DNA of 64,000 bases from Taeniopygia guttata (Eukaryota > Chordata > Aves > Passeriformes > Estrildidae): assembly GCF_048771995.1 (NCBI RefSeq), contig NC_133026.1, forward strand, positions 151,055,001 through 151,119,000, given 5' to 3'. The first letter of the stretch is position 1; each line of letters starts with the position of its first letter. Shown in pieces: positions 1 through 64,000 of the stretch. The position numbers and the translations under genes are program-made. The notes beneath the pieces were generated by a model. The model saw nothing but the letters and a program-made list of their open reading frames with translations. It was not told where the DNA came from and did not search any database.

Positions 1-367
1 TTTTAGGGGGGTTTTGGGGGCTTCTGGGGCTTTTTTTGGGATTTTATTTTGATTTTTTGGGATTTTATTCAGATTTTTTTGCATTTTTGGGGATTTTATT
101 GGGGATTTTTGGTGGATTTTATTTGGATTTTTTGGGGGGATTTTTTGGGGATTTTATTCTTATTTTTTGGGGATTTTTTGGGCGGTTTTTGGGTATTTTC
201 CGGGGATTTTTGGGGTTTTTTTGGGATTTATTTGGGATTTTAGAGGGATTTTTTCTGGATTTTTTGGGATTTTTTTTGGGATTTTATTCCGATTTTTTTG
301 GTTTTTATTGGGATTTTTGGGGGATTTTATTGGAATTTTTGGGAGATTTTTTGGGAATTTATTGGGA

Positions 368-406
368 GTGCGCCACAACCTCTCCTCCAACCCCTGCTTC
401 GCCAAG
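368..406 (+). repeat. FOXH1: partial copy 1 of FOXH1 forkhead exon end with 5' splice site
   Basis: These 39 bases encode VRHNLSSNPCFAK, the forkhead helix-3 signature (compare SVRHNLSSNRCFRK of human FOXH1), and are followed at once by a GT donor at 407. The preceding residues of the domain are replaced by the G/T array, so this is a truncated exon end and not a complete exon. It joins in phase with the exon starting at 2831, which begins VLKDPSK. The intact forkhead exon should lie upstream of the window. Confidence 0.85.
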
Positions 407-904
407 GTCGGAAAATTGGGAATTTTCGGGAATTTTGGGAATTTTTGGGGAATTTTGGGATCTGGGAAAAAATTGGAATTTCTTTGGGGGGTTTTGGGGC
501 TTTTTTTGGGATTTTATTTTGATTTTTTGGGGATTTTATTTTGATTTTTTGGGATTTTATTTTGATTTTTTTAGGATTTTTGGGGGATTTTTTTGAGGAT
601 GTTTTTGGGAATTTTTTGGGGGAATTTTTTGGGGATTTTATTCTAAATTTTTGGGGATTTTTTTAGAATTTATTCTGATTTTTTGGGGGTTTTTTTGGGA
701 TTTTTTATGGATTTTATTGGGAATTTTGGGGATTTGGGGGGGATTTTTTTATTTTATTGGGTTTTTTGAGGATTTTATTCTGATTTTTTGGGGGATTTTT
801 TTGGATTTTTGGGTGATTTCATTGGGATTTTATTGGGGGTTTTTTTTGGGGATTTTATTCAGATTGTTTTGCTTTTTTTGGGATTTTTTGGGATTTTATT
901 GGGA

Positions 905-943
905 GTGCGCCACAACCTCTCCTCCAACCCCTGCTTCGCCAAG
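905..943 (+). repeat. FOXH1: partial copy 2 of FOXH1 forkhead exon end with 5' splice site
   Basis: This is identical to the fragment at 368-406 over its 39 bases and over the first bases of the intron, with the donor at 944. It lies 537 bp after copy 1. The identity points to a recent duplication or to homogenisation. Confidence 0.85.
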
Positions 944-1170
944 GTCGGAAAATTCGGGAATTTTTGGGAATTTTGGGAATTTTTGGGTCTGGGAAAAATT
1001 TGGGATTTTTTGGGGTTTTTTTTTGGGGCTTCTGGAGCTTTTTTGGGGATTTTATTCTGATTTTTTTGGGATTTTATTCAGATTTTTTTGCATTTTTGGG
1101 GATTTTATTGGGGATTTTTTGGGATTTTTTTGTGGATTTTATTGGGATATTTTTGGGGATTTTTTGGGGA

Positions 1171-2815
1171 TTTTTTTGTATTTTTCGCGTTTCTCACCCA
1201 ATTTTTGGGATTTTTTTTTCATTTTTTGCCTTCCTCACCCGATTTTTGGGATTTTTTTTTGCATTTTTTGCCTTTCTCACCCCATTTTTCTTGGTTTTTT
1301 TTCATTTTTTACCTTCCTCACCCAAATTTTGTGGTTTTTTTGCATTTTTTGCGTCTCTCAAAGTATTTTTTTGGTTTTTTTGCATTTTTTGCATCTCTCA
1401 AAGGATTTTTTTGTTTTTTTTGCATTTTTCGCGTTTCTCACCCGATTGTTTTGGGGTTTTTTGCATTTTTTGCCTTCCACACACGATTTTTTGGGGTTTT
1501 TTTGCATTTTTCACGTTTCTCACCCCATTTTTCTTGTTTTTTTTATTTTTCGCCTTTCTCACCCTATTTTTTCTTGTTTTTTTTCATTTTTTACCCTCCT
1601 CACCCAAATTTTGTGGGTTTTTTGCATTTTTTGCGTCTCTCAAAGTGTTTTTTTGGTTTTTTTGCATTTTGTGCATCTCTCACAGGATTTTTTTGGGGTT
1701 TTTTGCATTTGTCGCGTTTCTCACCTGATTTTTTTGGGTGTTTTTGCATTTTTCGCCTTCCTCAGCCAATTTTCAGGATTTTTTTGCATTTTTCGCATTT
1801 CTCACCCAATTTCTGTGGGTTTTTTGCATTTTTTGCATTTCTCACCCGATTTTCGTGGTTTTTTTTCATTTTTGGCATTTCTCACCCAATTTTTGTGTTT
1901 TTTTTGCATTTTTTGCCTTCCACACCCGATTTTTTTGCATTTTTTGTGTTCCTCACCTGATTTTTTGTGGTTTTTTTGCATTTTTTGCATTTCTCACCCA
2001 ATTTTTTTGCATTTTTCACGTTTCTCACCCCATTTTTCATGGTTTTTTTTGCATTTTGATGTTTCTCACCCAATTTTTTGGAGTTTTTTGCATTTCTCAG
2101 CTTTCTTACCCGATTTTTCATGGGTTTTTTTTGCATTTTTCACCTTTCTCACCCAATATTTTTGCATTTTTCGCACTTCTCACCCAATTTTTTTTGGTTT
2201 TTGCATTTTTCGCCTTTCTAACCCAATTTTTTGCATTTTTTGCGTTTCTCACCCCATTTCTAGTGGTTTTTTTACATTTTTCGCATTTCTCACCCAATTT
2301 TCGCGGGGTTTTTTTTTGCATTTTTTGCCATTCTTACTCAATTTTCATGGTTTTTTTTGCATTTTTCACCTTTCTCACCCATTTTTTTTTGCATTTTTCG
2401 CCTTTCTCACCCAATATTTTTGCATTTTTCGGGTTTCTCACCCAATTTTTTTTTCATTTTTCGCATTTCTCACCCCATTTTTCATGATTTTTTTACATTT
2501 TTCACCTTCCTCACCCAATTTTCATGGTTTTTTTTTCATTTTTGGCATTTCTCACCCAATTTTTGTGGTTTTTTTGCATTTTTTGCCTTCCACACCGGAT
2601 TTTTTTGCATTTTTCGTGTTCCTCACCCAATTTTCAGGATCTGTTTGCATTTTTCGCCTTCCTCACCCGATTTTTTGGGGTTTTTTTGCATTTTTCGCGT
2701 TTCTCACCCAATTTTTTTTGCATTTTTTGCATTTCTCACCCCATTTTTCATGATTTTTTCACCTTTCTCACCCAATTTTTTATATTTTTCTTTCATTTTT
2801 CTCATTTCTCACCGT
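1171..2815 (+). repeat. C/T-rich ~40-bp minisatellite, 3' half of FOXH1 intron
   Basis: This is a tandem array of roughly 40-bp units built from TTTTTGCATTTTTCGC, TTCTCACCCAATTTT and similar blocks, with variable T runs. It makes a very long pyrimidine-rich lead-in to the real acceptor at 2829-2830. All long open frames here are low-complexity Phe/Ser/His strings and are not genes. Confidence 0.9.
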
Positions 2816-2830
2816 ATTTTCCCCCCCCAG

Positions 2831-3814
2831 GTGCTGAAGGACCCCTCCAAGCCTCACTCCAAAGGCAACTTTTGGACGGTGGACGTGGCTCGGATCCCTC
2901 CGGCGGCGCTGCGGCTGCAGAACACGGCGGTGGCGCGCGCCAACAACGTCAACAACGTCAACAACAACGTCAACAACAACGTCAACAACAACGTCAACGC
3001 CAACAACGCCAACGCCGCCATCCCCTTCGTCCCCGACCTCTCCCCCTTCATCCTCTCGGGGTGCCCCTTCCCCCCGTCCCCTCCTGCCCCCCAAAATTCC
3101 AATTTCTCCATCGATTCCCTCCTCCGGCCGCCCCCCAATTGGGAGGGTCCCAAATTCGGGGCGCCCCCAAACCGCCCCCAAATTTGGGGTCAGCTGCCGA
3201 CGTCCTACAGCGCCGGGCCGGCGCCCAACGCGGTGGCGCCGGGGGTGGGGGCGGCGCCCCGAATTTTGGGGGGGGTTTGGGGGGGTGGGGGTGGATCTCA
3301 GGTGGATTTTGGGGGGTCTCGAGTGGATTTGGGGGGGTCCCGGGTGGATTTTGGGGGGTCCCCGAAGGGTTTGGGGGGGTCCTCGAAGGGTTTGGGGGGA
3401 GCCCAGAAGGATTTTGGGGGGTCCCAGAAGGATTTTGGGGGGTCCCGGGTGGATTTTGGGGGGTCCCCGAAGGGTTTGGGGGGATCCCAGAAGGATTTGG
3501 GGGGGTCCCGGGTGGATTTTGGGGGGTCCCAGAAGGATTTGAGGGGGTCCCAAGTGGATTTTGGGGGGTCCCAGAAGGATTTGAGGGGATCCCAGAAGGA
3601 TTTTGGGGGGTCCCAAGTGGATTTTGGGGGTTCCCGGGTAGATTTTGGGGGTTCCCGGGTGGATTTTGGGGGTTCCCGGGTGGATTTTGGGGGTTCCCGG
3701 GTGGATTTTGGGGGTTCCCGGGTGGATTTCGGGGGGTTCCTCCTCCCCCCCCCCAATAAAAGCATTTTCGACGTTTGGCTGAGCCACCCCGGGGACATCG
3801 TCATCAGGGGCTGA
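2831..3814 (+). CDS. FOXH1: FOXH1 last coding exon (forkhead wing to SMAD-interaction C-terminus)
   Basis: FOXH1 is the nuclear forkhead DNA-binding partner of SMAD2/3-SMAD4 in Nodal/activin signalling. The exon starts after a C-tract and AG at 2829-2830, in phase 0, and encodes 327 residues before TGA at 3812-3814. It opens with VLKDPSKPHSKGNFWTVDV and RIPPAALRLQNTA, the forkhead wing region typical of FOXH1. An Asn/Val-rich stretch and LSPFILSGCPFPPSPP follow; the latter matches GPYVLHGRPYRPPSPP of mammalian FOXH1. WGQLPTSY marks the FoxH1 (FAST) motif, but the rest of that motif is poorly kept. A 21-copy heptapeptide array (3295-3735) then separates it from the C-terminal SMAD-interaction motif PPNKSIFDVWLSHPGD. 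The heptad array is not part of the known family and keeps the frame. Identity is very secure; the 5' exons are outside the window. Confidence 0.95.
   Translation: MLKDPSKPHSKGNFWTVDVARIPPAALRLQNTAVARANNVNNVNNNVNNNVNNNVNANNANAAIPFVPDLSPFILSGCPFPPSPPAPQNSNFSIDSLLRPPPNWEGPKFGAPPNRPQIWGQLPTSYSAGPAPNAVAPGVGAAPRILGGVWGGGGGSQVDFGGSRVDLGGSRVDFGGSPKGLGGSSKGLGGAQKDFGGSQKDFGGSRVDFGGSPKGLGGSQKDLGGSRVDFGGSQKDLRGSQVDFGGSQKDLRGSQKDFGGSQVDFGGSRVDFGGSRVDFGGSRVDFGGSRVDFGGSRVDFGGFLLPPPNKSIFDVWLSHPGDIVIRG
3295..3735 (+). repeat. FOXH1: in-frame 21-bp minisatellite inside FOXH1 coding sequence
   Basis: There are 21 consecutive 21-bp units, each encoding a heptapeptide of the type GGSRVDF, GGSQKDF or GGSPKGL. 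The last five units are identical at protein level (GGSRVDF), which suggests recent growth at the 3' end. The period is a multiple of three and the SMAD motif is reached in frame. I see no credible splice pair that would remove the array and keep PPNKSIF, so it is probably translated. Confidence 0.9.
3755..3760 (+). terminator. FOXH1: AATAAA hexamer inside FOXH1 coding sequence
   Basis: The Asn-Lys codons of the SMAD motif PPNK are AAT AAA, which forms a perfect poly(A) signal 52-57 bases before the stop codon. I see no other AATAAA between the stop and 5230. ATTAAA variants occur only in the array at 5231-5856. Whether the in-CDS hexamer is used cannot be told from sequence. Confidence 0.5.
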
Positions 3815-5230
3815 TGACGTCATTGGGGCACCCCCAAATTTTTGGGGTCACCCCAAATCCCGGTGACCAAAATTTGGGGGTGTCACCTCCCAAACTGGCA
3901 AAATTTTTGGGTTTTTTGGCCCAAAATTGAGTCTGAGCACCCCAAAATTTGCATCAAAACCCACAAAATTTGGGAGGATGACGTCATAGGGGCACCCCCA
4001 AATTTTTTGGGGTCACCCCAAACCCCGGTGACCAAAATTTGGGTGTTTCACCTCCAAAAGTGCCAAATTTTGGGGGTTTTTGGCCCAAAAATGAGTCTGA
4101 ACACCCCAAAATTTGCATCAAAACCCAGAAAATTTGGGTTGATGACGTCATAGGGACACCCCCAAATTTTTGGGGTCACCCCAAATCCCGGTGACCAAAA
4201 TTTGGGGGTGTCACCCTCCCAAAATGGCCAAATTTTCGGGTTTTTTGACTCAAAATTGAGGCTGAACACCCCAAAATTTGTGTTCTAAGCCCCTGAAATT
4301 TGGGTTGATGACGTCATAGGGGCACCCCCAAATTTTTGGGGTCACCCCAAACCCCGATGACCAAAATTTGGGGTGTCACCCTCCCAAATGGCCAAATTTT
4401 GGGTTTTTTGGCCCAAAATTGATTCTGAACACCCCAAAATTTGCATCAAAACCCCCAAAATTTGGGGTGATGACGTCATAGGGACACCCCCAAATTTTTG
4501 GGGTCACCCCAAACCCCAATGACCCAAATTTGGGTGTTTCACCTTCAAAATGGCCAAATTTTGGAGTTTTTAGCCCAAAATTGAGTCCAAAAACCCCAAA
4601 ATTTGTGTTTAACCGCCCCAAACTTGGGGTGATGACGTCATAGGGACACCCCCAAATTTTGGGGTCACCCCAAATCTCGGTGACCAAAATTTGGGGGTGT
4701 CACCCCCAAAAGTGCCAAAATTTGGGGATTTTTGACACAAAATCGAGTCTGAACACCCCAAAATTTGCATGAAACCCCACAAAATTTGGGGTGATGACGT
4801 CATAGGGGCACCCCCAAATTTTTGGGGTCACCCCAAACCCCGGTGACCAAAATTTTGGGGTGCCACCTCCCAAAATGGCCAAATTTTGGAGTTTTTGGCC
4901 CAAAATTAAGGCTGAACACCCCAAAATTTGCATCAAAACCCCCCAAAATTTAGGTTGATGACGTCATAGGGACACCCCCAAATTTTTGGGGTCACCCCAA
5001 AACCCGGTGACCAAAATTTGGGTGTTTCACCCTCAAAAATGGCCAAATTTTGGAATTTTTGGCCCAAAATTGAGGCAAAACACCCCAAAATTTGTATCCG
5101 ACCCCCCTAAAATTTTGGGGTGATGACGTCATGAGGGGTGATGACGTCATGGGGTCACCCCAAAAAAATTTGGGGGTGCCACGCCCCCCCCCCCAAATTT
5201 GAGCCCGGCCACCCCAAAATTTTGGGGGGT
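3815..5230 (+). repeat. ~163-bp tandem array with ten CRE palindromes, downstream of FOXH1
   Basis: The array begins directly at the FOXH1 stop codon. Each unit holds one perfect TGACGTCA; the sites start at 3815, 3979, 4143, 4309, 4471, 4633, 4795, 4959, 5124 and 5142. They are followed by blocks of the type GGGGCACCCCCAAATTT, GGTGACCAAAATTTGGG and GCCAAATTTTGGG. About half of the units also contain the POU octamer ATTTGCAT (near 3947, 4110, 4438, 4762 and 4926). Spacing of the first nine sites is 162-166 bp, and the last unit has a doubled CRE. Confidence 0.9.
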
Positions 5231-5869: not shown

Positions 5870-6145
5870 GTTTGGGATTTTGGGGTTTGAGAATCGCCGC
5901 CCTAATTACCATATTTAGCCCCGCCCACCATCAAACAGCCAATCCCCGCGCTCTAATTACCATAATTCCCCCGCCCGCAACAAACCACGCCCACCGCGCT
6001 GTAGCCCCGCCCACCGCGCGGCCCCGCCCACCTACACCCCCTTAGCCCCGCCCACAGCTCACGCAGCCAATCAGAGCGCTCGGATTCGCCTTTGGCCACG
6101 CCCCTTCCCTGGTTTCGGCCGCACCCGGAAGTGCCGGTACCGGGG
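5870..6145 (+). promoter_or_regulatory. TMEM276: CpG-rich promoter of TMEM276
   Basis: This is a non-repetitive GC-rich stretch with GC boxes CCCCGCCC (for example 5919, 6005, 6022 and 6046), CCAAT boxes at 5939 and 6067, and an ETS-type site CCGGAAGTG at 6125-6133. There is no TATA box. It lies ~1 kb before the TMEM276 start codon. A short non-coding first exon is possible here, since the coding exon has an acceptor-like CACAG at 7131-7135. Confidence 0.75.
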
Positions 6146-7130
6146 GGACATTGGGGACATTTGGGGGGATTTGGAGGGGGTTGGGGACATTGGGGGGATA
6201 TTGGGGACATCAGGGGGGCTTGGGGACACTCAGGAGGACATTGGGGACACTGAGGGGACATTGGGGGGGTTTGGGGACATTGGGGACATTGGGGACATTG
6301 GGGGGGACATTTGGGGGGGTTTGGGGACATCTGGGTGGCCTTGGTGACATTTGGGGACATCAGGGGGGCCTTGGGGACATTGGGGACATCGGGGACATTG
6401 GGGACATTGGGGGACATTGGGGTGTTTGGGGACATTGGGGACATTGGGGACATTGGGGGGGGTTGGGGACATTGGGGGGACATTGGGGACATTGAGGGGG
6501 ACATTGGGGGGACATTGGGGACATTGAGGGGACATTGGGGGGACATTGGGGACATTGAGGGGGACATTTGGGACATTGGGGACACTGGGGGGATATTGGG
6601 GGGGGTTGGGGACATTGTGGGGGGGACATTGGGGGGGTATGGGGACATCGGGGGGACATTGGGGGGGACATTGGGGACATCGGGGTGGCCTTAGGGACAC
6701 TGGGGACATTGGGGTGGACATTTGGGGGGGCTTGGGGACATTTGGGGACATTTGGGGGGGATTTGGGGACATTTGGGGGATATTGGGGGGACATTTGGGG
6801 GGCTTGGGGACATTGGGGGGACATTTGGGGACATTGGGGGATTGGGGATATCAGGGTGGCCTTGGGGACATTGGGGGGTCATTGGGGGGGACATTGGGGG
6901 GGTTTGGGGACATTTGGGGACATTGGGGGGACATTGGGGACATTTGGGGGGGTTTGGGGACATTGGGGACATTGGGGGGACATTGGGGACATTGGGGGGG
7001 TTTGGGGACATTGGGGGGACATCAGGGTGGCCTTGGGGACATCAGGGTGGCCTTGGGGACATTGGGGACATTGAGGGGGTTTGGGGACATGCTGGGGGGG
7101 GGAGGGGACACTGTGACATCTGGATGTCCC
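6146..7130 (+). repeat. GGGGACATT minisatellite upstream of TMEM276 coding exon 1
   Basis: The 9-bp motif GGGGACATT and close variants (GGGGACATCAGGGTGGCC) recur about every 9-20 bp. Regular runs of four G make the + strand a dense G-quadruplex candidate. It is either a 5'UTR intron or an untranslated leader of TMEM276. No gene is seen in it. Confidence 0.9.
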
Positions 7131-7148
7131 CACAGGTGTCCCCAAGCC

Positions 7149-10205
<3,057 letters not shown>

Positions 10206-10219: not shown

Positions 10220-10693
10220 CTGACGGGTGGCCCGGCCGCCGGTTTCCTTCTCCAGGCCCTGGTGGCCGCCACCGACGCGATGTCCCCATTGATGTCCCCA
10301 TTGATGTCCCCAAGGCCACCCACCGCTGTCCCCAACGTCCCCGAGGCCCCATCCAGCTCCTGGATCTGCTCAGTGGTGGCCCAACCCTTGGTGGCCTTCG
10401 GGTGCCACCGCCTGAGCGGTGACAATGCCACCGCCAACGTCCTGTTGGTGACAAGCGCGGCGGTGGCATCGGTGGCACTGTGGTGGCCCGGCCGAGTGCC
10501 ACCGTGTCACTTTGTCACCGCGCTGACGGTCGCCTCGCTGCTGGCGCTGGCGGCGCTGACCGGAGGTGGCACCGCGGCGGTGGCGGCGGCGTTGGTGGCA
10601 CTCGGGGACGTGGTGGCACCCGCGGGTGTCCCCTGGGTCAGGGTGGCGGCCAGTGTGGCACTGCTGGGGACAATGAGGGACATGCGGCGCTGA
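10220..10693 (+). CDS. TMEM276: TMEM276 coding exon 2 (terminal)
   Basis: The acceptor AG is at 10218-10219, and the exon adds 157 residues to give a 193-residue protein. LTGGPAAGFLLQALVAAT aligns with RGAAAGFLLQVLAATTT of human TMEM276, and PLVAFGCHRLSGDNATANVLL aligns with LLAFDFHWVNGDRSSANLLL. Several hydrophobic spans follow (around ALWW, ALTVASLLALAAL, AAVAAALVAL and VAASVALLG), consistent with a polytopic membrane protein. Residues 57-67 (MSPLMSPLMSP, bases 10280-10312) are three units of the intron minisatellite inserted in frame into a loop. TGA is at 10691-10693 and a poly(A) signal follows at 10751. Confidence 0.9.
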   Translation: MTGGPAAGFLLQALVAATDAMSPLMSPLMSPRPPTAVPNVPEAPSSSWICSVVAQPLVAFGCHRLSGDNATANVLLVTSAAVASVALWWPGRVPPCHFVTALTVASLLALAALTGGGTAAVAAALVALGDVVAPAGVPWVRVAASVALLGTMRDMRR

Positions 10694-10699
10694 GGGGAC

Positions 10700-12735
10700 A
10701 GAGGGGTGGTGGCATTGGGGTGGCACTGATGGTGGCACTGTGGGGACACCAATAAAGGCACAGTGGCACTGGGGTGGTGGCACTGGGGTGGTCCTGGTGG
10801 CATTGATGGTGGCACTGGGGTGACACTGATGGTGGCACTGTGGGGACATCAATAAAGGCACGGTGACATTGATGGTGGCATTGGTGTGACACTGATGGTG
10901 GCACTGGGGTGGCACTGGTGGCACTGGGGTGGTCCTGGTGGCACTGGGGTGACATTCGGAGTGGCACTTCGGGGACACCAATAAAGGCACGGTGACACTT
11001 GGGTGGTGGCACTGGGATGGTCCTGGTGACACTGGGGTGACATTGGGGTGGTGGCACTGTGGGGACACCAATAAAAGCATGGTGGCACTTGGATGACATT
11101 GGTGGTGGCACTGATGGTGGCATCAGGTGGTGGCATTGGTGTGACACTGGGGTGGTGACATTGCAGGTGGCACTGTGGGGGCACCAATAAAGGCTCGGTG
11201 GCACTTGGGTGGTGGCACTGATGGTGGCACTGGTGACACTGGGGTGGTGGCACTATGGGGACACCAATAAAGGCACAGTGGCACTTGGATGACATTGGTG
11301 GTGGCACTGATGGTGGCACTGGGGTGGCACTATGGGGACATCAATAAAGGCACAGTGACATTGATGGTGGCATTGGTGTGACACTGATGGTGGCACTGGG
11401 GTGGTCCTGGTGGCACTTGGGTGGCACTGTGGTGGTGGCACTGTGGGGACATCAATAAAGGCATGGTGGCACTTGGGTGGTGGCACTGATGGTGGCACTC
11501 GGGTGGCACTGGGGTGGTACTGGGGTGACACTGATGGTGGCACTGGGGTGGTGGCACTGGGGTGACACTGATGGTGGCACTGGGGTGGCACTGGCATGAC
11601 ACTGGGTTGACACTGATGGTGGCACTGGGGTGGCACTGGGATGGTCCTGGTGCCATTAAGGTGACACTGATGGTGGCACTGGTGGCACTGGTGTGACACT
11701 GCAGGGACACCAATAAAGGCACAGTGGCACTTGGATGACATTGATGTGACACTGATGGTGACACTGATGGTGGCACTGGGGTGACACTGATGGTGGCACT
11801 GGTGGCACTGGGGTGGTGGCACTTCAGGGACACCAATAAAGACACGGTGGCACTTGGGTGGTGGCACTGGTGTGACACTGATGGTGGCACTGTGGGGACA
11901 CCAATAAAGGCACGGTGACACATGGGTGGTGACACTGATGGTGGCACTGGGATGGTCCTGGTGACATTGCGGTGGTGGCACTGAGGGGACACCAATAAAG
12001 GCACAGTGGCACTTGGGTGGCGGCACTGATGGTGGCACTGGGGTGACACTGATGGCACTGGGGTGGTGGCACTGGGGTGACACTGTTGGCACTGGGGTGG
12101 TGGCACTGGGGTGACACTGATGGTGGCACTGATGGTGACACTGATGGCACTGGGGTGGCACTGATGGTGGCACTGGGGTGGCACTGGGGTGGTCCTGGTG
12201 GCACTGGGGTGACATTTGGAGTGGCACTTCGGGGACACCAATAAAGGCACGGTGGCACTGGGGTGGTGACACTGGGGTGACATTGATGGTGGCACTGGGG
12301 TGGCACTGGTGACATTGGGGTGGTGGCACTGTGGGGACATCAATAAAGGCATGGTGGCAATTGGATGGTGGCACTGGGGTGGCACTGATGGTGGCACTGT
12401 GGTGGCACTGCTGTGACATTGATGGCACTGGGGTGGCACTGATGGTGGCACTGATGGTGACACCGGGGTGACATTGGGGTGGTGGCACTATGGGGACACC
12501 AATAAAGGAATGGTGGCACTTGGGTGGTGGCACTGGGGTGACATTGATGGTGACACTGATGGTGGCACTGGGGTGACACTGATGTGACACTGATGGTGGC
12601 ACTGATGGTGGCACTGGGGTGGTGGCACTGTGGGGACACCAATAAAGGCACAGTGGCACTTGGATGACATTGGTGGTGGCACTGATGGTGGCACTGATGG
12701 TGACACTGATGGTGGCACTGAGGTGGTGGCACTGG
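10700..12735 (+). repeat. minisatellite carrying 16 AATAAA poly(A) signals after TMEM276
   Basis: Units are GTGGCACTGGGGTGGTGGCA-like blocks joined to GGGGACACCAATAAAGGCAC. The AATAAA hexamers start at 10751, 10851, 10980, 11070, 11186, 11266, 11343, 11454, 11712, 11835, 11903, 11994, 12240, 12342, 12501 and 12641. The first copy sits in the natural 3'UTR of TMEM276, and the others look like tandem duplicates of that 3' end together with its G/T-rich downstream element. No gene lies within. Confidence 0.95.
10751..10756 (+). terminator. TMEM276: first poly(A) signal of TMEM276
   Basis: AATAAA lies 58 bases after the TGA and is followed by G/T-rich text (GGGGTGGTGGCACTGGGGTG) typical of a downstream element. 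It is the nearest of 16 such signals and therefore the most likely natural 3' end. Confidence 0.75.
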
Positions 12736-13557: not shown

Positions 13558-13890
13558 ATGGCGGCGGCGATGTCGGGGCCGGAGGAGCGCGATGGCGGCG
13601 GCGGCCCCGCCGCTCCCTCCGCTCCTTCCGCGCCCGTTCCCGCGGCCTCAGCCGCCATCAGCGGAGGAGGAGGAGGGGAAAGCGGGGAAGAAGCGGCGGC
13701 GCTGCTGATGGAGGCGGGAGGAGATCCCGACGCGCCGCCCAAGAAGCGGCTGAGGGCGGCGGGGAGCGGCGGCGGCGGCGGCGGCGGCGGCGCTGAGGGG
13801 GCGGCGGGGAACGTGAAGTTGGAGGAGCGGCTGCACTCGGTGCTTTGCTGCACCGTGTGCCTCGATCTGCCCAAGGCCTCCGTCTACCAG
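13558..13890 (+). CDS. ZFTRAF1: ZFTRAF1 (CYHR1) coding exon 1: N-terminus and first half of RING
   Basis: ZFTRAF1/CYHR1 is a cytoplasmic cysteine- and histidine-rich protein with a RING-like finger, a TRAF-type zinc finger and a SINA/TRAF-like C-terminal domain. The exon encodes 111 residues. A low-complexity Gly/Ala/Pro N-terminus with a basic PPKKRLR patch (residues 61-67) is followed by [19 protein letters not shown] and KASVYQ, almost identical to the mammalian protein and holding the first RING cysteine pair. The donor GT is at 13891 in phase 0. ATG 13558 is preferred; a second in-frame ATG lies four codons on. The Gly/Ala stretch is a trinucleotide-rich run that may vary in length. Confidence 0.9.
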
Positions 13891-22060: not shown

Positions 22061-22222
22061 GTAGTGAGGTCCAGTGGGAGATGTGGAACCAATGGGGAAT
22101 TAAATGACCGCCCCGTGCCTCAGTTTCCCTTCTCCTACTGCAACAACCCATTCCTTTAGCATTAAATTGCGAAAAATCCCTAAAAATCCCTAAAAATTCC
22201 GGATTTTTTTTGGAATTCCCAG

Positions 22223-22270
22223 TGCACCAACGGGCACCTGATGTGCGCGGGCTGCTTCATCCACCTGCTG
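22223..22270 (+). repeat. ZFTRAF1: partial copy 1 of ZFTRAF1 exon 2 start with 3' splice site
   Basis: It encodes [16 protein letters not shown], identical to the real exon 2 start, then breaks into the GGGAATGG array at CTGCTGG. A transcript using this acceptor would read on into repeat and end at an in-frame stop within about 40 codons, losing the rest of the RING. Confidence 0.85.
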
Positions 22271-23125
22271 GGAAATGGGAATGGATGGGGATCCATGGGG
22301 ATCAATGGGGATCAATGGGGAATATCAGTGGGGAATTGGGAATTAACGGGGAATTCCAATGGGAAATTGGGAATCAATGGGGAATTCCAATGGAGAATTA
22401 GGAATTAATGGGAAATTCCAATGGGGAATCAATGGGAAATGGGGAATCGATGGGGAATTCCAATGGGAAATTGGGAATCAATGGGGAATTCCAATGGGAA
22501 ATTGGGAATCAATGGGGAATCAATGGGAAATTGGGAATCAATGGGAAATTCCAATGGGAAATTGGGAATCAATAGGGAATCAATGGGGAATTCCAATGGG
22601 AAATTGGGAATCAATGGGGAATTACCAATGGGGAATCAATAGGAAATTCCAATGGGAAATTCCAATGGGGAATTTGGAATCAATAAGGAATTCCAATGGG
22701 AAATTGGGAATCAATGGAGAATCAATGGGAAATTCCAATGGGGAATTGGGAATCAATGGGGAATCAATGGGAAATTCCAATGGGGAATCAATGGGGAATT
22801 CAAATGGGAAATTTGGAGTCAATGGGGAATTCCAATGGGAAATTCCAATGGGAAATTGGGAATCAATGGGGAATTCCAATGGGAAATTGGGAATCAATGG
22901 GGAATCAATGGGAAATTCCGATGGAGAATTGGGAATCAATGGGAAATTCCAATGGGGAATCAATGGGGAATTCCAGTGGGAGATGCGGAACCAATGGGAA
23001 TCAAATGACCGCCCCGTGCCTCAGTTTCCCTTCTCGTACCCCAACAACACATTCCATCATCGCTAAAAATTGGTAAAAATTCCCAAAAATCCCTAAAAAT
23101 TCCCGGTTTTTTTTGGAATTGCCAG

Positions 23126-23173
23126 TGCACCAACGGGCACCTGATGTGCGCGGGCTGCTTCATCCACCTGCTG
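23126..23173 (+). repeat. ZFTRAF1: partial copy 2 of ZFTRAF1 exon 2 start with 3' splice site
   Basis: The coding text is the same as at 22223-22270, with a slightly altered acceptor context (GGAATTGCCAG). It lies 903 bp after copy 1 and 777 bp before the real exon 2. An in-frame stop follows within about 25 codons in the array. Confidence 0.85.
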
Positions 23174-23902
23174 GAAATGGGAATGGATGGGGATCCATGG
23201 GAATCAACGGGGATCAATGGGGAATGTCAGTGGGGAATTGGGAATTAATGGGAAATTCCAATGGGGAATTGCAATGGGGAATCAATGGGGAATCAATGGG
23301 AAATTCCAATGGGAAATTGGGAATCAATGGGAAATTCCAATGGGAAATTGGGAATCAATGGGAAATTCCAATGGGGAATCAATGGGAAATTGGGAATCAA
23401 TGGGAAATTCCAATGGGAGATTGGGAATCAATGGGAAATTCCAATGGGAAATTCCAATGGAGAATTATGAATCAATGGGAAATTCCAATGGGAATTAGGA
23501 ATCAATGGGAAATTCCAATGGGAGACTCCAATGGGAAATTCCAATAGGGAATCAATGGGAAATTGGGAATCAATGGGAAATTCCAATGGGGAATTCCAAT
23601 GGGAAATTGGGAATCAATGGGGAATTCCAATGGGAAATTGGGAATCAATGGGGAATCCAATGGGGAATCAATGGGAAATTGGGAATCAATGGGGAATCAA
23701 TGGGAAATTCCAATGGGAAATTGGGAATGAGTGGGGAATTACAATGGGAGATGCGGAACCAATGGGGAATCAAGTGACCGCCCCGTGCCTCAGTTTCCCT
23801 TCTCCTACTGCAACAACACAGTCCATCAAGATCACATTGCGAAAAATTCTTAAAAATTCCTAAAAATCTTCAAAAATTTCCAATTTTTTTTGGAATTCCC
23901 AG

Positions 23903-24141
23903 TGCACCAACGGGCACCTGATGTGCGCGGGCTGCTTCATCCACCTGCTGGCCGACTCGCGGCTGAAGGAGGAGCAGGCCACCTGCCCCAACTGCCGCTG
24001 CGAGATCTCCAAGAGCCTCTGCTGCCGCAACCTGGCCGTGGAGAAGGCGGTCAGCGAGCTGCCGGCCGAGTGCGGCTTCTGCGCCCGCCAGTTCCCCCGC
24101 TCCCTGCTCGAGCGGCACCAGAAGGAGGAGTGCCAGGACAG
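23903..24141 (+). CDS. ZFTRAF1: ZFTRAF1 coding exon 2: rest of RING and TRAF-type finger
   Basis: The 239-bp exon starts in phase 0 and ends in phase 2. It completes the RING (CTNGH, CAGC, CPNC and CRC ligands) and continues with [18 protein letters not shown] and the zinc-finger segment [17 protein letters not shown], then KEECQD. The match to mammalian CYHR1 is close to identity over the whole exon. Both edges of this exon have been copied into the neighbouring introns, its start twice upstream and its end nine times downstream, but this is the only complete copy. Confidence 0.95.
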
Positions 24142-27100: not shown

Positions 27101-27215
27101 TTTTTTAGGGATTTTTAGGGTGGATTTTGGGGGTTTTGGGATGGTTTCCCACCTAAAAGTTCTTGAGATGTTCCTTGGAGCAGCACCAGAAGGAGGAGTG
27201 CCAGGACAGGTCAGG
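24142..27215 (+). repeat. array with nine copies of ZFTRAF1 exon 2 end and 5' splice site
   Basis: Units of ~200 or ~371 bp contain G/T-rich intron text, the conserved line CTTAAAGTTCTTGAGATG and TTCCTTGGAGCATCACCAG, then the end of exon 2 ([13 protein letters not shown]) and the donor GTCGGG. Copied exon ends fall at 24337, 24544, 25210, 25581, 25921, 26119, 26490, 26861 and 27209; the last copy is shorter. Between them lie further degenerate copies (near 24706, 24857, 25010, 25350, 25718, 26288, 26648 and 26990). Several copies have an AG just before the exon text, so they look like tiny cassette exons of 49-50 bases, which would not keep the frame. Confidence 0.9.
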
Positions 27216-35709: not shown

Positions 35710-35902
35710 GTACGGGAATCCAGAAAAAGTCCCAAAATTCCACAAAATTCCCAAAATTCCACAAAATTCTGGTGGTTTTCTGAAGGTTTCTCGGGGTTTT
35801 TTGAAGGTTTTTTGAGGTTTTATGGAGTTTTCATTGGGTTCCTCGACGGTTTTTTCCAACCTCTCATCCCAAATTTTTTTCCCCTTTTTTTTTTCCCCCC
35901 AG

Positions 35903-36643: not shown

Positions 36644-37035
36644 AGGTGCAATTCCGCCCGTACCGCACCGACGACTTCATCACGCGCCTTTACTACGAGA
36701 CGCCGCGGCTGACGGTCCTCAACCAGACGTGGGTTCTGAAGGCGCGCGTCAACGACTCGGAACGCAACCCCAACCTGTCCTGCAAACGCACCTTGAGCTT
36801 CCAACTGATCCTCAAGAGCAAAGTCAACTCCCCCATGGAATGTTCCTTCCTTCTTCTGGAAGGTCCCTACGACGACGTCAAGATCAACCCGGTCATCTAC
36901 CACTTCGTCTTCAGCAACGAGAGCAACGAGACCGATTACATGGCGCTGCCCATCGTCGATTCCGTGGAGTGCAACAAACTCTTGGCGGCCAAAAACATCA
37001 ACCTGCGGCTTTTTATATTCCAGATCCAAAAATAA
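36644..37035 (+). CDS. ZFTRAF1: ZFTRAF1 coding exon 4: C-terminal TRAF/SINA-like domain
   Basis: This terminal exon enters in phase 1 and encodes 130 residues: [59 protein letters not shown] and so on to [12 protein letters not shown]. It closely matches the C-terminal beta-rich domain of mammalian CYHR1, including the invariant end LFIFQIQK. Stop TAA is at 37033-37035. With exons 1-3 this gives a 391-residue protein, longer than my recollection of mammalian forms only because of the N-terminal low-complexity region. Confidence 0.95.
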
Positions 37036-46015: not shown

Positions 46016-46668
46016 TTTTCCCGCCTCACGAAAGGGGCGGGACTTTATCTATACCGACCAATAGGAACGTCCCGTTCCGCCTCTCCGGGTGCTGATTGGT
46101 TAACGCGGCCGCGCTCAGCCAATCAGCACGCGGGGGAGGCGTGGTCAGGGCGGAGGGGCTGATCGCGGAAGATCCGCCGTGATCTTTTCCCGCCTCACGA
46201 AAAGGGCGGGACTTCACCTTTATCAACCAATAGCAGCGTCGCTTTCGTCTCTACGGGCGCTGATTGGTTAACGCGGCGGCGCTCAGCCAATCAGCGCGCG
46301 GGGAAGGCGTGGTCAGGGCGGAGGCTCCGGTCGCGGAAGATCCGCCGTGATCTTTTCCCGCCTCACGAAAGGGGCGGGACTTCACCCGTACCGACCAATA
46401 GGAACGTCTCCTCCCGCCTCTCCGGGCGCTGATTGGTTAACACGGCGGCTCTCAGCCAATCAGCGCGCGGGGGAGGCGTGGTCAGGGCGGAGGCCCTGAG
46501 CGCGGAAGATCCGCCGCGATCTTTTCCCGCCTCACGAAAGGGGCGGGACTTCACCTTTATCAACCAATAGCAGCGTGCGCTTTCGTCTCTACGGGCGCTG
46601 ATTGGTTAACGCGGCGGCTCTCAGCCAATCAGCGCGCGGGGGAGGCGTGGTCTGGACGAGCGGCGGCA
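46016..46668 (+). promoter_or_regulatory. TONSL: fourfold tandem TONSL promoter with E2F and CCAAT boxes
   Basis: Four units of 168-169 bp start at CGCCTCACGAAA (46022, 46191, 46359 and 46528). Each begins with TTTTCCCGCC, a perfect E2F-type site, and holds three CCAAT boxes (ACCAATAG, GATTGGTTAA, AGCCAATCAG), CpG-rich text and then a degenerate copy of coding exon 1 ending at GATCCGCC. Units 1 and 3 share ACCGACCAATAGGAACGT, while units 2 and 4 share TTTATCAACCAATAGCAGCG, so the array is a duplicated dimer (ABAB). The fourth unit leads into the real ATG. E2F control fits the replication-repair role of TONSL. Confidence 0.85.
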
Positions 46669-46711
46669 ATGGCGGAGGCGCTGAGCGCGGAGGCGGCGCG
46701 GGAGATCCGCC
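46669..46711 (+). CDS. TONSL: TONSL coding exon 1
   Basis: TONSL (NFKBIL2) is the nuclear TPR/ankyrin/LRR scaffold that with MMS22L binds post-replicative chromatin (histone H4 unmethylated at K20) and promotes RAD51 loading at broken forks. This 43-bp exon encodes MAEALSAEAAREIR and one base of the next codon, with donor GTGAGT at 46712. Joined to the exon at 51795 it reads REIRQLEKSKEKSQ, matching RELRQLSKAKAKAQ of human TONSL. The three upstream promoter units carry degenerate copies that lack the ATG and have the poorer donor context GTGATC or GCGATC. Confidence 0.9.
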
Positions 46712-51794: not shown

Positions 51795-51890
51795 AGCTGG
51801 AGAAATCCAAGGAAAAGTCGCAGCGGGACGGGAACGCGGCCGAGGAAGCGGCAGCCTGCAACCGGCTCGGGGAGATCCTGGCGGAGCACG
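51795..51890 (+). CDS. TONSL: TONSL coding exon 2 (start of TPR region)
   Basis: The 96-bp exon enters in phase 1 and leaves in phase 1. It encodes LEKSKEKSQRDGNAAEEAAA and CNRLGEILAEHG, aligned with [20 protein letters not shown] and CHQLGELLAGHG of human TONSL, the first TPR helix. The donor GTGAGAAC is at 51891. Its last ~25 bases plus donor are repeated twelve more times in the following intron. Confidence 0.92.
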
Positions 51891-54775
51891 GTGAGAACCG
51901 GAATTCGGGAATAAAAACCGGGAATTCCGGCCGGGAATGCGGGAATTCCAACTGGGAAACTGGGAATTCCAACTGGGAATGGGAATGGGAAACTGGGAAT
52001 GGGAAACTGGGAATGGGAAACTGGGAATGGGAATTTGGGAATGGGCTGGAGAGATCCTGGCGGAGCACGGTGAGAGAGACGGAAATTCGGGAATAAAATC
52101 CGGGAATTCCGGCCGGGAATCCGGGAATTCCTACTGGGAATCCGGGAATTCCTACTGGGAATGGGGCTGGGAAACTGGGAATTAACTGGGAATGGGAAAC
52201 TGGGAATGGGAAACTGGGAATGGGAATGGGAAACTGGGAATTTGGGAATGAACTGGAGAGACGGAATTCGGGAATAAAATCCGGGAATTCCGGCCGGGAA
52301 TGCGGGAATTCCTACTGGGAATGGGGCTGGGAAACTGGGAATGGGAAACTGGGAATGGGAAACTGGGAATGGGAAACTGGGAATGGGAAATTGGGAATGG
52401 GGAACTGGGAATGGGAATTTGGGAATGAACTGGAGAGATCCTGGCGGAGCACGGTGAGAGAGACGGAATTCGGGAATAAAAACCGGGAATTCCGGCCGGG
52501 AATCCGGGAATTCCAACTGGGAATGGGGATGGGAAACTGGGAATGGGAAACTGGGAATGGGAATGGGGAATTGGGAATGGGAAACTGGGAATGGGAATGG
52601 GGAACTGGGAATGGGAATTTGGGAATGAACTGGAGAGATCCTGGCAGAGCACGGTGAGAGAGGCGGAATTTGGGAATAAAATCCGGGAATTCCGGCCGGG
52701 AATGCGGGAATTCCTACTGGGAATGGGGCTGGGAAACTGGGAATGGGAAACTGGGAATGGGAATTTGGGAATTTGGGAATGAACTGGAGAGATCCTGGCA
52801 GAGCACGGTGAGAGAGGAGCTGGAAATTTGGGAATAAAAACTGGGAATTCCAGCCGGGAATTGGGAATTCCAACTGGGAATGGGAATGGGAAACTGGGAA
52901 TTAACTGGGAATGGGAATGGGGAACTGGGAATGGGAAACTGGGAATGGGAATGGGAAATTGGGAATGGGAATGAACTGGAGAGATCCTGGCGGAGCACGG
53001 TGAGAGAGGCGGAATTTGGGAATAAAATCCGGGAATTCCGGCCGGGAATCCGGGAATTCCAACTGGGAATGGGAATGGGAAACTGGGAATGGGAAACTGG
53101 GAATGGGAATGGGAATTTGGGAATGGGAATTTGGGAATGAACTGGAGAGATCCTGGCAGAGCACGGTGAGAGAGCCGGAATTTGGGAATAAAAACCGGGA
53201 ATTCCAGCCGGGAATGCGGGAATTCCAACTGGGAATGGGAATGGGAAACTGGGAATGGGAAACTGGGAATGGGAAACTGGGAATGGGAATTTGGGAATGA
53301 ACTGGAGAGATCCTGGTGGAGCACGGTGAGAGAGACGGAATTTGGGAATAAAATCCGGGAATTCCGGACGGGAATCCGGGAATTCCAACTGGGAATGCGG
53401 GAATTCCAACTGGGAATTAACTGGGAATTCCAACTGGGAATGGGGATGGGAAACTGGGAATGGGAAATTGGGAATGGGAATGGGAATGGGGAACTGGGAA
53501 TGGGAATTTGGGAATGAACTGGAGGGATCCTGGCGGAGCACGGTGAGAGAGGCGGAATTTGGGAATAAAATCCGGGAATTCCGGCCGGGAATCCGGGAAT
53601 TCCTACTGGGAATGGGAATGGGAAACTGGGAATGGGGATGGGGAACTGGGAATGGGAATGGGAAATTGGGAATGGGAATTTGGGAATGAACTGGAGAGAT
53701 CCTGGCGGAGCACGGTGAGAGAGGAGCCGAAATTTGGGAATAAAATCCGGGAATTCTGGCCGGGAATCCGGGAATTCCTACTGGGAATGGGAATGGGGAA
53801 CTGGGAATGGGAATGGGAAACTGGGAATGGGAATTTGGGAACTGGGAATGGGGAACTGGGAATGGGAATGGGCTGGAGAGGCGGAATTTGGGAATAAAAT
53901 CCAGGAATTCTGGCCGGGAATTGGGAATTCCAACTGGGAATGGGGATGGGAAAATGGGAATGGGAATGGGAATGGGAAACTGGGAATGGGAATGGGAAAC
54001 TCGGAATGGGAATTTGGGAATGAACTGGGGAGATCCTGGCGGAGCACGGTGAGAGAGCCGGAATTTGGGAATAAAATCCGGGAATTCCGGCCGGGAATCC
54101 GGGAATTCCTGCTGGGAATGGGAATGGGGAACTGGGAATGGGAATGGGGAACTGGGAATTAACTGGGAATGGGAAACTGGGAATGGGAATGGGAATCTGG
54201 GAATGGAAAACTGGGAATGGGGAACTGGGAATTTGGGAATGGGGAACTGGGAATGGGAATTTGGGAATGAACTGGGGAGATCCTGGCGGAGCACGGTGAG
54301 AATGGAGCTGGAAATTTGGGAATAAAAACCGGGAATTCCGGCCGGGAATCCGGGAATTCCAACTGGGAATGGGAATGGGAAACTGGGAATGGGAAACTGG
54401 GAATGGGAAACTGGGAATGGGGAACTGGAAATGGGAATGGGCTGGAGAGACGGAATTCGGGAATAAAATCCGGGAATTCCAGCTGGGAATGCGGGAATTC
54501 CAACTGGGAATGGGAATGGGAAACTGGGAATGGGAAACTGGGAATGGGAATGGGAAACTGGGAATGGGAAACTGGGAATGGGAAACTGGGAATGGGAAAC
54601 TGGGAATGGGAATGAACTGGAGAGATCCTGGCGGAGCACGGTGAGAGAGACGGAATTCGGGAATAAAATCCGGGAATTCCGGCCGGGAATGCGGGAATTC
54701 CAACTGGGAATGGGAATGGGGAACTGGGAATGGGAATGGGGAACTGGGAATGGGAATGGGGAACTGGGAATGGTG
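51891..54775 (+). repeat. minisatellite with twelve extra copies of the TONSL exon 2 donor
   Basis: Units of about 150-390 bp hold GGAATTCCGGCCGGGAAT, AACTGGGAATGGGAATGG runs and then GAGATCCTGGCGGAGCACG with donor GTGAGAGA. Extra donors start at 52070, 52454, 52654, 52808, 53000, 53166, 53326, 53543, 53715, 54049, 54296 and 54641. Some units have lost this segment (near 52259, 53877 and 54445). The copied coding text is EILAEHG, sometimes with Gln for Glu. Confidence 0.92.
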
Positions 54776-61846: not shown

Positions 61847-61989
61847 GCCGGTTCCCGGAGGCGCTGGAGCAGCACCGTCAGGAGCTGCGGCTGCTGCGCG
61901 GCGCCGGCGACGCCCTCGGCACGGCCGTGGCGCACCGCAAGGTGGGAGAGCGCCTGGCCGAGCTGCAGCGCTTCCCCGAGGCCCTGCAG
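61847..61989 (+). CDS. TONSL: TONSL coding exon 3 (TPR)
   Basis: The 143-bp exon enters in phase 1 (completing Gly) and ends in phase 0 at CTGCAG before GTCAGG. It encodes [39 protein letters not shown] and QRFPEALQ, aligned with [39 protein letters not shown] and EDYPAALQ of human TONSL. These are the first full TPR repeats. The acceptor CTCGCAG lies after a short non-repetitive tract (61801-61846). Confidence 0.95.
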
Positions 61990-62284
61990 GTCAGGAAAAC
62001 ACGGAATTCCGGGAATTCCCGGGAATTTCTGGGAATTCTGGGGGGTTTGGGAGTGTTAGAGGCGGTTTGGAGGGGATTCTCATTTTTTTACCCAAATTTT
62101 CCCCCAATTTTGCCCCAGTTTTCCCCCAATTTCCCCCGAATTCTCTCCCCATTTTCTCCCTATTTCCTCCCAATGTTTCGCAATTTTCTTGGAATTTTTT
62201 CCGAATTTCTCCCAATTTTCTCCCTTTTTTCCCCCATGTTCCCCATTTTTACCCAAAATCCCATTTTTTCTCCCCATTTCGCAG

Positions 62285-62324
62285 CACCAGCAGCAGCACC
62301 TGCTCAGGCCCCGGCGCCGGGGCC
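62285..62324 (+). repeat. TONSL: partial copy of TONSL exon 4 start, internally shortened
   Basis: After TTTCGCAG it encodes HQQQHL and then jumps to the CCCCGG-CGGGGCC end seen in the longer copy at 63651. It has no usable donor, so it is a copied acceptor edge. It corresponds to HQHQYL of human TONSL. Confidence 0.75.
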
Positions 62325-62986
62325 ATTTTCCATTTCCTCCCATTATTACCAATTCTCTCCCAATTTTTCCCCAATTTCTCCCCATTTTTTCCCATTTTCC
62401 CAATTTCTCCCAATTTTCCCCCAATTTTTCCCAGTTTTCTCCCAATTTTTCCCTGAATTCTCTCCCACTTTTTTCCCAATTCTCTCCCACATTTCCCTCA
62501 ATTCTCTCCCAATTTCCCCCCAAATTTCCCCGAATTTCTCCCAATTTTCTCCCAGTTTTTCCCAATTTCCCCCCAAATTTCCCCCAATTTTCCCCAATTT
62601 TCTCCCAAATTTTCCCCCAATTCTCTCCCAATTTCTCCCAATTTTTCCCCAATTTCCCCCCAAATTTCCCCCAATTTCTCCCAATTTTCCCTCATTTTTT
62701 CCCCATTTTCCCCCAATTCTCTCCCCCTTTTTTCCCAATTCTCTCCCAAATTTTTCCCAATTTTCCCCCAATTTTCCCCAATTTTACCTGAATTTCCCCC
62801 CAATTTTCCCCCAAATTTCCCCCAACTTTCCCGAATTCTCTCCCCATTTCCTCCCCATTTTTCTGAAATTTCTTCGAATTTCCTCCGAATTTCTCCCAAT
62901 TTTGTCCCGTTTTTTTTCCCATTCCCCCCAATTTTTCCTACTTTTTCCCATTTTTAACAAATTTCCCATTTTTTCTCCCCATTTTT

Positions 62987-62994
62987 CCAGCACC
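62987..62994 (+). repeat. TONSL: remnant acceptor of TONSL exon 4 copy
   Basis: TTTTCTCCCCATTTTTCCAG leads into only four exon bases (CACC) before array text resumes. It lies 706 bp after the previous acceptor and 660 bp before the next, fitting the higher-order period. Confidence 0.6.
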
Positions 62995-63650
62995 CAATTT
63001 TCCCCAAATTCTCTCCCCGTTTTCTCCCCATTTCCTCCTGATTTTTCTCAAATTTCTTCAAATTTTCTCAGATTTTCTCCCAGTTTTTTTCCAATTTCTC
63101 CCAATTTTCCCCCAATTTTTCCCCAATTTTCTCCCAAGTTTTCCCCGATTGCCCCCCAAATTTCCCCCAATTTCTCCCAATTTCTCCCCAATTTTCCCCC
63201 AATTTCCCCCAATCTCCCCCAATTTCTCCCGATTTTTGCCATTTTTTCCCAATTGTTTCCAAATTTTCCCCCAATTTTCCCCCAAATTTCCCCAAATTCT
63301 CTCCCTGTTTCTTCTCCATTTCCTCCCCATTTTTTCTCAATTTTCTTCGCATTTTCTCTGAATTTCTCCCAATTTCCTCCCATTTTTTCCATTTCCCCCC
63401 ATTCTTCCTATTTTTTCCCATTTTTAACCAATTTCTCCTTTTTTATACCCAATTTTTTCCCAAATTTCCCTGAATTCTCTCCCCATTTCCTCCCGATTTT
63501 TCTCAATTTTCTTCGAATTTTCTCCAAATTTCGCCCAATTTTCTTCCGTTTTTTTTCTAATTTCTCCCAATTTTCTCCCAATTTTCTCCCTTTTTTTCCC
63601 CCATTTATCCCCATTTTTACCAAAATCCCGTTTTTTCTCCCCATTTCCAG

Positions 63651-63720
63651 CACCAGCAGCAGCACCTGCAGGGCGCTCTCCGCCTGGGCTCGGCGGTGGA
63701 GCAGCAGCAGCCCCGGGGCC
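63651..63720 (+). repeat. TONSL: longest partial copy of TONSL exon 4 start
   Basis: After ATTTCCAG it encodes [19 protein letters not shown], aligned in phase 0 with HQHQYLELAHSLRNHTELQ of human TONSL, then turns into CAGCCCCGGGGCC and array text without a donor. RAWATIG should follow in an intact exon and is missing, so I read this as an upstream edge copy. The intact exon probably lies just past 64000. Confidence 0.75.
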
Positions 63721-64000
63721 ATTTTCCATTTTCTCCCATTTTTCCCAATTTTCCCCCAAATTTTTCACAATTTCTCCCAATTTTCTCCAATTTTTCCCAG
63801 TTTTCTCCCAATTTTCCCCTGATTCTCTCCCACTTTTCTCCCAATTCTCTCCCAATTTTTTCCCAAATTTTCTCCCAAATTTTGACATTTTTTCCCAATT
63901 TCTCCCCAATTTTTCCCCAATTTCTCTTAATCTCTCCCAATTTCTCCCAATTTTTGCCATTTTTTTCCCAATTTTTGCCATTTTTTCCCAAATTTTCCCC

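Follow-up and report, generated by a model that had tools for sequence, protein, structure and literature searches.

How do pieces of exons, complete with a splice site, come to be repeated in the introns beside them, and would such copied sites be used? We addressed this question in one window (the whole stretch of DNA that was analysed, 64,000 nt) of Taeniopygia guttata, NC_133026.1, positions 151,055,001-151,119,000, whose genes, every one on the + strand, are FOXH1 (end only), TMEM276, ZFTRAF1 and TONSL (start only). We identified 29 solid exon-edge copies, 17 in ZFTRAF1 and 12 of TONSL exon 2, all on the + strand. These partial copies are very probably of the kind described in chicken as exon stuttering (Hron et al. 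2026, PMC12954441), the products of tandem duplications that started or ended inside the exon.

Exon-edge copies in ZFTRAF1 and TONSL

The intact exons of the two genes within the window (coordinates are window positions throughout) are as follows.

13558-13890, + strand: ZFTRAF1 exon 1, coding part (homologue comparison)
23903-24141, + strand: ZFTRAF1 exon 2, intact source (homologue comparison)
33048-33259, + strand: ZFTRAF1 exon 3, intact source (homologue comparison)
36644-37034, + strand: ZFTRAF1 exon 4, coding part, intact source (homologue comparison)
46669-46711, + strand: TONSL exon 1, coding part (open frame)
51795-51890, + strand: TONSL exon 2, intact source (TPR_12 match)
61847-61989, + strand: TONSL exon 3 (open frame, domain search)

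The joined frame of ZFTRAF1 is open across its four exons and shows 88-89% identity to the three best bird ZFTRAF1 matches. TONSL exons 1-3 also join into an open frame and a continuous protein; the PDB matches of exon 2 include Protein TONSOKU 7t7t (E=2e-6), ranked below other TPR proteins.

Nine exons (those of FOXH1 left aside) were compared with eight introns on the + strand using blastn-short and requiring at least 20 nt and at least 42.1 bits, the limits of the published chicken screen (PMC12954441). The screen gave 24 matches, every one of them in the adjacent intron: 19 involve an exon edge (44-127 bits) and the other 5 the interior of TMEM276 exons. The other introns searched contain none of the 19 edge matches. 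In 60 dinucleotide shuffles of the eight introns no match attained 42.1 bits, the best reaching 30.2 bits. Since shuffled introns never reach the threshold, a chance origin of the exon-edge copies is excluded. The copies in ZFTRAF1 are listed below, with identity to the source exon.

22221-22271, + strand: exon 2 acceptor and 49 nt (100% over 49 nt)
23124-23174, + strand: exon 2 acceptor and 49 nt (100%)
24291-24339, + strand: exon 2 tail and GT (97.9%)
24498-24546, + strand: exon 2 tail and GT (97.9%)
25157-25212, + strand: exon 2 tail and GT (96.3%)
25529-25583, + strand: exon 2 tail and GT (98.1%)
25875-25923, + strand: exon 2 tail and GT (93.6%)
26068-26121, + strand: exon 2 tail and GT (98.1%)
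26444-26492, + strand: exon 2 tail and GT (95.7%)
26815-26863, + strand: exon 2 tail and GT (97.7% over 44 nt)
27178-27211, + strand: exon 2 tail and GT, shortened (96.9% over 32 nt)
24693-26664, + strand: span in intron 2 with six decayed exon 2 tails (nhmmer E 3e-4 to 1e-7)
29747-29825, + strand: exon 3 acceptor and 77 nt (93.5%)
30863-30941, + strand: exon 3 acceptor and 77 nt (94.8%)
31970-32048, + strand: exon 3 acceptor and 77 nt (94.8%)
34331-34396, + strand: exon 3 tail (64 nt) and GT (100%)
35646-35711, + strand: exon 3 tail (64 nt) and GT (100%)
35901-35945, + strand: exon 4 acceptor and 43 nt (100%)

The copies of TONSL exon 2 are all exon tails.

52048-52071, + strand: exon 2 tail and GT (18-mer, nhmmer); the sole copied donor <400 nt from a real acceptor
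52432-52455, + strand: exon 2 tail and GT (18-mer, nhmmer)
52632-52655, + strand: exon 2 tail and GT (18-mer, nhmmer)
52786-52809, + strand: exon 2 tail and GT (18-mer, nhmmer)
52978-53001, + strand: exon 2 tail and GT (18-mer, nhmmer)
53144-53167, + strand: exon 2 tail and GT (18-mer, nhmmer)
53304-53327, + strand: exon 2 tail and GT (18-mer, nhmmer)
53521-53544, + strand: exon 2 tail and GT (18-mer, nhmmer)
53693-53716, + strand: exon 2 tail and GT (18-mer, nhmmer)
54027-54050, + strand: exon 2 tail and GT (18-mer, nhmmer, blastn-short screen)
54274-54297, + strand: exon 2 tail and GT (18-mer, nhmmer, blastn-short screen)
54619-54642, + strand: exon 2 tail and GT (18-mer, nhmmer)

Two of these 12 exceed 42.1 bits. 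The other 10, of 22 nt each, fall below that limit; they were recognized by an 18-mer allowing no more than one mismatch (expected 5e-5 per window) and by nhmmer (E 3e-12 or lower) using a model made from these copies themselves.

The splice dinucleotide is intact in 29/29 copies, that is, GT in 23/23 donor copies and AG in 6/6 acceptor copies. The copies are 22-77 nt long and number 1-12 per family; none of the 29 contains a whole exon (the longest covers 77 of 212 nt) and none carries both splice sites. The six decayed exon 2 tails start at 24693, 24849, 24999, 25708, 26279 and 26638. In one of them GT is missing from the aligned position, another reads TTAG/GTCGGG (the slash marks the exon border), and in four the last exon bases are lost or altered, yet the border reads GATG/GT. 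A seventh, weaker tail near 26960 is below the limit.

The sequence-only reading of this window had counted about 37 partial exon copies with a splice site, of which 29 are confirmed here. Its ZFTRAF1 counts were reproduced in full (17/17: exon 2 acceptor 2 and donor 9, exon 3 acceptor 3 and donor 2, exon 4 acceptor 1), as was its count of 12 TONSL exon 2 donors (12/12, by 18-mer match and nhmmer). The decayed exon 2 tails and TMEM276 were absent from that tally, its two FOXH1 donors proved wrong, and its copies of TONSL exons 1 and 4 were partly right (see below).

Polarity, spacing and growth of the arrays

In all six families with an intact source exon in the window, copied exon ends lie downstream of the source and copied starts upstream, a polarity that had been noted from the sequence, with TONSL exon 1 as the exception, and that holds (6/6). 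The exon breakpoints are common within families, lying 49, 77, 43, 64 and ~22 nt from the border, and 32-54 nt in the exon 2 donor family; the intron ends at the breakpoints are repeats themselves. The exon 3 acceptor units are spaced in register at 1116, 1107 and 1076 bp and the exon 2 acceptor units at 903/777 bp; the spacing is 196-371 bp with one gap of 666 for the exon 2 donors, and 154-384 bp for the TONSL exon 2 copies.

We propose that the arrays arose by tandem duplications spanning the exon border, from a breakpoint in the exon to another in the intron. The geometry of such an event necessarily places the intact exon at a border of the array, so that copied ends come to lie downstream of it and copied starts upstream. 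Later growth would copy the array units and not the exon again, and candidates for the duplication step are replication slippage, unequal exchange or break repair. Tandem duplication with a breakpoint in the exon had been suggested before; it fits the polarity, the spacing and the shared breakpoints, and failed in its application to FOXH1.

Growth from array copies is shown for exon 3 by its three copied heads, which share four changes (A>C, A>C, A>C and G>C) that are absent from the real exon. The exon 3 copies thus grew from one already mutated copy. Other pairs of these heads differ from each other at 1/77 positions and from the real exon at 4-5/77. Among 119 aligned homologues (of the best 120 of 575 matches), the residues T, K and I are found in 109, 104 and 117 sequences, respectively, whereas the copies encode P, Q and L, residues that occur in 0, 3 and 1 of the homologues.

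Two further observations concern these families. The four changes common to the exon 3 heads (29749, 30865, 31972) all lead to C. A copied exon 3 donor also stands 193 nt ahead of the copied exon 4 acceptor (35710-35903) inside intron 3, where the two form the exon 3-exon 4 junction in miniature.

Exon pieces and the surrounding array DNA

In the closest pairs of copies, we compared the exon piece with the intron part of the same units. Differences were found at 0/77 against 146/979 positions (p 9e-6), 0/64 against 180/1048 (p 1e-5) and 0/49 against 77/712 (p 0.007), where the p-values treat sites as independent. In the ZFTRAF1 exon 2 donor family the difference is 0.041 in the exon part and 0.221 in the first 60 nt of the intron; the contrast is small in the TONSL exon 2 family (mean 0.049 vs 0.072).

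The intron part of the units consists almost entirely of sub-repeats. The intron difference between the exon 3 donor units is 0.172 in register against 0.19-0.22 when rotated, which is near scrambled; in the other two families the register beats two of three rotations, the third being similar, with >550 gap columns. When the exon piece is compared with unique intron sequence only, no significant contrast is obtained (0/49 vs 6/74, p 0.08). The contrast is explained most simply by fast sub-repeat turnover and not by selection on splice sites; such selection is unsupported beyond the general preservation of the exon pieces.

The exon pieces can be regarded as single-copy markers within the arrays. 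Those in ZFTRAF1 suggest a far higher rate of change in array DNA than in the exon sequence duplicated along with it, and array growth by renewed copying of existing copies.

Use of the copied splice sites and alternative explanations

For an exon to be recognized, its acceptor and donor usually must lie close together. Among 10 real and 29 copied sites of ZFTRAF1 and TONSL, the acceptor-donor pairs within 400 nt (≤400 nt) are four real exons and one mixed pair, formed by the real TONSL exon 2 acceptor (51795) and the first copied donor (52070) at 275 nt. The resulting extension of TONSL exon 2 by 179 nt has no in-frame stop and shifts the frame. If used, 28/29 copied sites would introduce an in-frame stop. 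The acceptor copies of exons 2 and 4 stand at multiples of three (1680, 777 and 741 nt), but the extensions contain stops, and these in-frame cases were set aside as chance.

The copied splice sites are thus predicted to be mostly inert passengers, with the 275-nt TONSL pair as one candidate for use. They would be mostly harmless because no copy is a whole exon, each having one site. The banks of competing sites envisaged from the sequence are supported only in that the sites are intact; 1/29 lies within 400 nt of a partner. The 29 intact extra splice sites are offered for tests by RNA sequencing.

It can alternatively be supposed that the copied sites are a working bank, kept by selection or by conversion from the real exon and used in alternative splicing. 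Such a bank would account for the GT/AG kept in 29/29 edge copies, for a GT at about the donor place in 5/6 decayed exon 2 tails and for the smaller divergence of the exon pieces relative to the intron parts of their units; that last contrast, however, is set against an intron part that is nearly all sub-repeat, fades to p 0.08 on unique sequence, includes a unit pair in near scrambled order and is small in TONSL. The real donor 9-mer is kept in 12/12 TONSL copies, in 6/9 copies of ZFTRAF1 exon 2 and in 0/2 of exon 3. The prevalence of in-frame stops also speaks against use, and there has been no recent conversion from the real exon 3, because its copies retain four differences from it. We consider a working bank unlikely.

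That the copies are assembly artefacts of repetitive DNA is very improbable, hard as such regions are to assemble: the copies carry private as well as shared differences and have diverged flanks, the in-frame coding repeat of TMEM276 is shared by the zebra finch protein P0241, and nanopore reads confirmed the same structure at PHF8 in chicken (PMC12954441). The shortness of the exon pieces (22-77 nt) might instead point to dispersed templated insertions at break repair, an origin that we can give hardly any credence, as side, orientation, breakpoints and unit spacing are constant within each family and 19/19 above-threshold edge matches are in the adjacent intron, none in the others searched.

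Several points weigh against tandem duplication of the exon stuttering kind with inert copied sites. The polarity evidence consists of six families only, with p ~0.016 under a coin-flip null (0.5^6 = 0.016), and TONSL exon 1 breaks the simple polarity, a case for which we propose a unit that would hold the whole start of the first exon. Neither the six decayed tails nor TMEM276, nor TONSL exons 1 and 4, nor unrelated cryptic sites enter the distance comparison. The location on a dot chromosome is drawn from repeat density and from the chicken report (PMC12954441), and the arrays and their splice sites are known here from one assembled sequence alone.

Arrays at other gene edges

Tandem repeats are abundant throughout the window, with 505 rows from Tandem Repeats Finder (TRF); a 12-mer that recurs within 5 kb begins at 71% of positions. 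The GC skew changes abruptly between arrays (1-64000). When each intron was divided into quarters, 2/9 introns (the FOXH1 intron and ZFTRAF1 intron 2) passed from a G-rich donor side to a C-rich acceptor side, and the remaining 7/9 kept a single sign throughout. The arrays at the other gene edges are the following.

2831-3814, + strand: FOXH1 last exon, open to the stop (phmmer, forkhead box protein H1 chain 7yzb, E=2.4e-15)
3302-3737, + strand: FOXH1 in-frame 21-bp coding minisatellite, ~20 units of VDFGGSR type (phase 0, indel-free)
3808-5138, + strand: 164-bp array beginning at the FOXH1 stop codon (TRF)
7136-7256, + strand: TMEM276 exon, ATG at 7149 (TMEM276 matches)
10220-10693, + strand: TMEM276 last exon, with an in-frame 12-bp array (MSPLMSPLMSP) at 10279-10312 (homologues)
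10694-12735, + strand: TMEM276 3' array with 16 AATAAA signals (shuffle mean 0.02)
46058-46668, + strand: TONSL promoter/exon 1 array of ~168-bp units (three CCAAT-type boxes per unit)
62284-62330, + strand: putative copy of TONSL exon 4 acceptor and exon head (source outside the window)
62989-62994, + strand: TONSL exon 4 acceptor, truncated to AG and ~4 exon bases (sequence)
63649-63720, + strand: putative copy of TONSL exon 4 acceptor and exon head (source outside the window)

The best match of FOXH1 is from Lonchura striata, among songbird FOXH1 matches; a Pfam search gave no family at E 0.1 or better for FOXH1 or TMEM276. The open frame through the 21-bp array of FOXH1 runs into NKSIFDVWLSHPGD, and the simplest interpretation of the array is a coding minisatellite that keeps the frame, not the bank with two copied donors proposed earlier. 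An intron with copied donors was rejected at this place, the 21-bp units all being in phase 0, without indels and in an open frame. The CAG/GTGGAT sites were also discarded: a single AG is present in the stretch from the array to the conserved motif, and paired with it they fail to restore the frame. With that AG, 16 GT sites keep the conserved C-terminus in frame, 13 inside the array (all GGG/GT) and 3 before it, with no CAG/GTGGAT among them. Within 3258-3775 there are 112 frame-keeping GT-AG pairs, 15 of them with a consensus-like donor, and partial splicing within the array may be possible on this basis.

The 21-bp array adjoins the conserved NKSIFDVW end of the protein, and a second in-frame coding repeat of FOXH1, 12 bp long and Asn-rich (NNVNNNVNNNV), is present at 2941-3016. 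The array at the stop codon contains 10 TGACGTCA motifs, which are cAMP response element (CRE)-like, at 3815-5149. Internal repeats were flagged in 5/240 proteins. Two are relevant, both as database models: P0118 (Melospiza FOXH1) has a different coding array, and in P0001 (Lonchura FOXH1) the exon head is present twice. The repeats of P0003, P0194 and P0204 were judged unrelated.

TMEM276 has its best match in an uncharacterized protein of zebra finch (94% over 87%); the other named matches are mostly transmembrane protein 276. Its MSPLMSPLMSP repeat is shared with the zebra finch protein P0241 and absent in 10 other bird proteins (11 of 23 matches were aligned). This 12-bp coding repeat resembles the array of the adjacent intron. 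The interior of the exon at 7136-7256 resembles the GGGGACATT array of the preceding intron (6144-7130) at 44-52 bits, a similarity that does not reach the exon edge. Judged from their sequence, the 16 AATAAA signals after the TMEM276 stop could form a bank of competing 3' ends.

Three exon 1-like ends precede TONSL, the first base after each being 46179, 46347 and 46516. They lie upstream of the real exon and have no ATG in 3/3. Three donor copies of exon 1 had been claimed: the look-alikes exist, within a promoter array, and keep GT in 2/3 only, with poor flanks and low donor scores. The array comprises four ~168-bp promoter-like units with three CCAAT/ATTGG boxes each, and the last unit holds the real exon 1. 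As for the three exon 4 acceptors claimed earlier, all are seen, one with ~4 exon bases; they plausibly are copies of TONSL exon 4, whose intact form must then lie beyond position 64000.

The arrays of FOXH1, TMEM276 and the TONSL promoter may share their process with exon stuttering. In its widest form, which we advance tentatively and rate a little below an even chance, a single duplication process on songbird dot chromosomes would multiply all gene edges, including splice sites, poly(A) signals, CCAAT boxes, the stop-codon/CRE block and in-frame codons. Selection would allow only whole-codon units in coding exons and half exons in introns; with exon pieces nearly unchanged and array turnover much faster, the exon pieces could date array growth.

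Comparison with known systems

Tandem duplication of whole exons gives mutually exclusive or duplicated exons. The copies described here resemble it in the local tandem copying of exon sequence and differ from it in that a whole exon with both splice sites is present in 0/29. A second related process is intron gain through tandem genomic duplication of AGGT segments, as reviewed in PMC3443670, in which tandem duplication likewise multiplies splice-site-like sequence. There an exonic segment is duplicated and a new intron results, whereas here the unit straddles the exon border and lengthens an old intron. No new intron was seen inside an exon of the window: the copies are in existing introns, and the joined exons of ZFTRAF1 and exons 1-3 of TONSL read continuously.

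The closest system is exon stuttering, or sequence stuttering, on avian dot chromosomes, described in chicken, where exon edges with the adjacent donor or acceptor are copied through introns. PMC12954441 reports 236 such introns (190 on dot chromosomes) in 115 genes, copies of 20-187 bp, 1-44 copies per expansion and strong length polymorphism; repeat blocks were not seen crossing into the exon, intergenic repeats vary too, and the mechanism is left open. The sequence-only reading, which knew of no named system with this behaviour, was mistaken here, since exon stuttering is already named and includes the copying of splice sites. The report's main text does not name FOXH1, TONSL or ZFTRAF1 and does not contain the words 'polyadenyl', 'promoter', 'UTR', 'in-frame' or 'reading frame'. 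No paper on dot chromosomes with poly(A) signals and tandem repeats was found among the matches listed, no wider search having been made.

The present copies agree with the published description (PMC12954441) in that lateral parts of coding exons with their splice site are repeated in tandem in the adjacent intron on the + strand, with the source at the exon border in 6/6 families and GT/AG in 29/29 copies. Copy lengths (22-77 nt) and numbers (1-12 per family) are within the published ranges, the source exons are intact, with the four ZFTRAF1 exons and TONSL exons 1-3 open, and the host introns are largely tandem repeats. They differ in being from a songbird and not from chicken, and in the further content of the arrays, which includes poly(A) signals, promoter boxes and in-frame codons. 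The in-frame arrays seen in FOXH1 and in TMEM276 suggest that this instability can extend to the protein sequence, something that the chicken report did not observe. The case described here provides clean examples of exon stuttering from a bird that is not the chicken.

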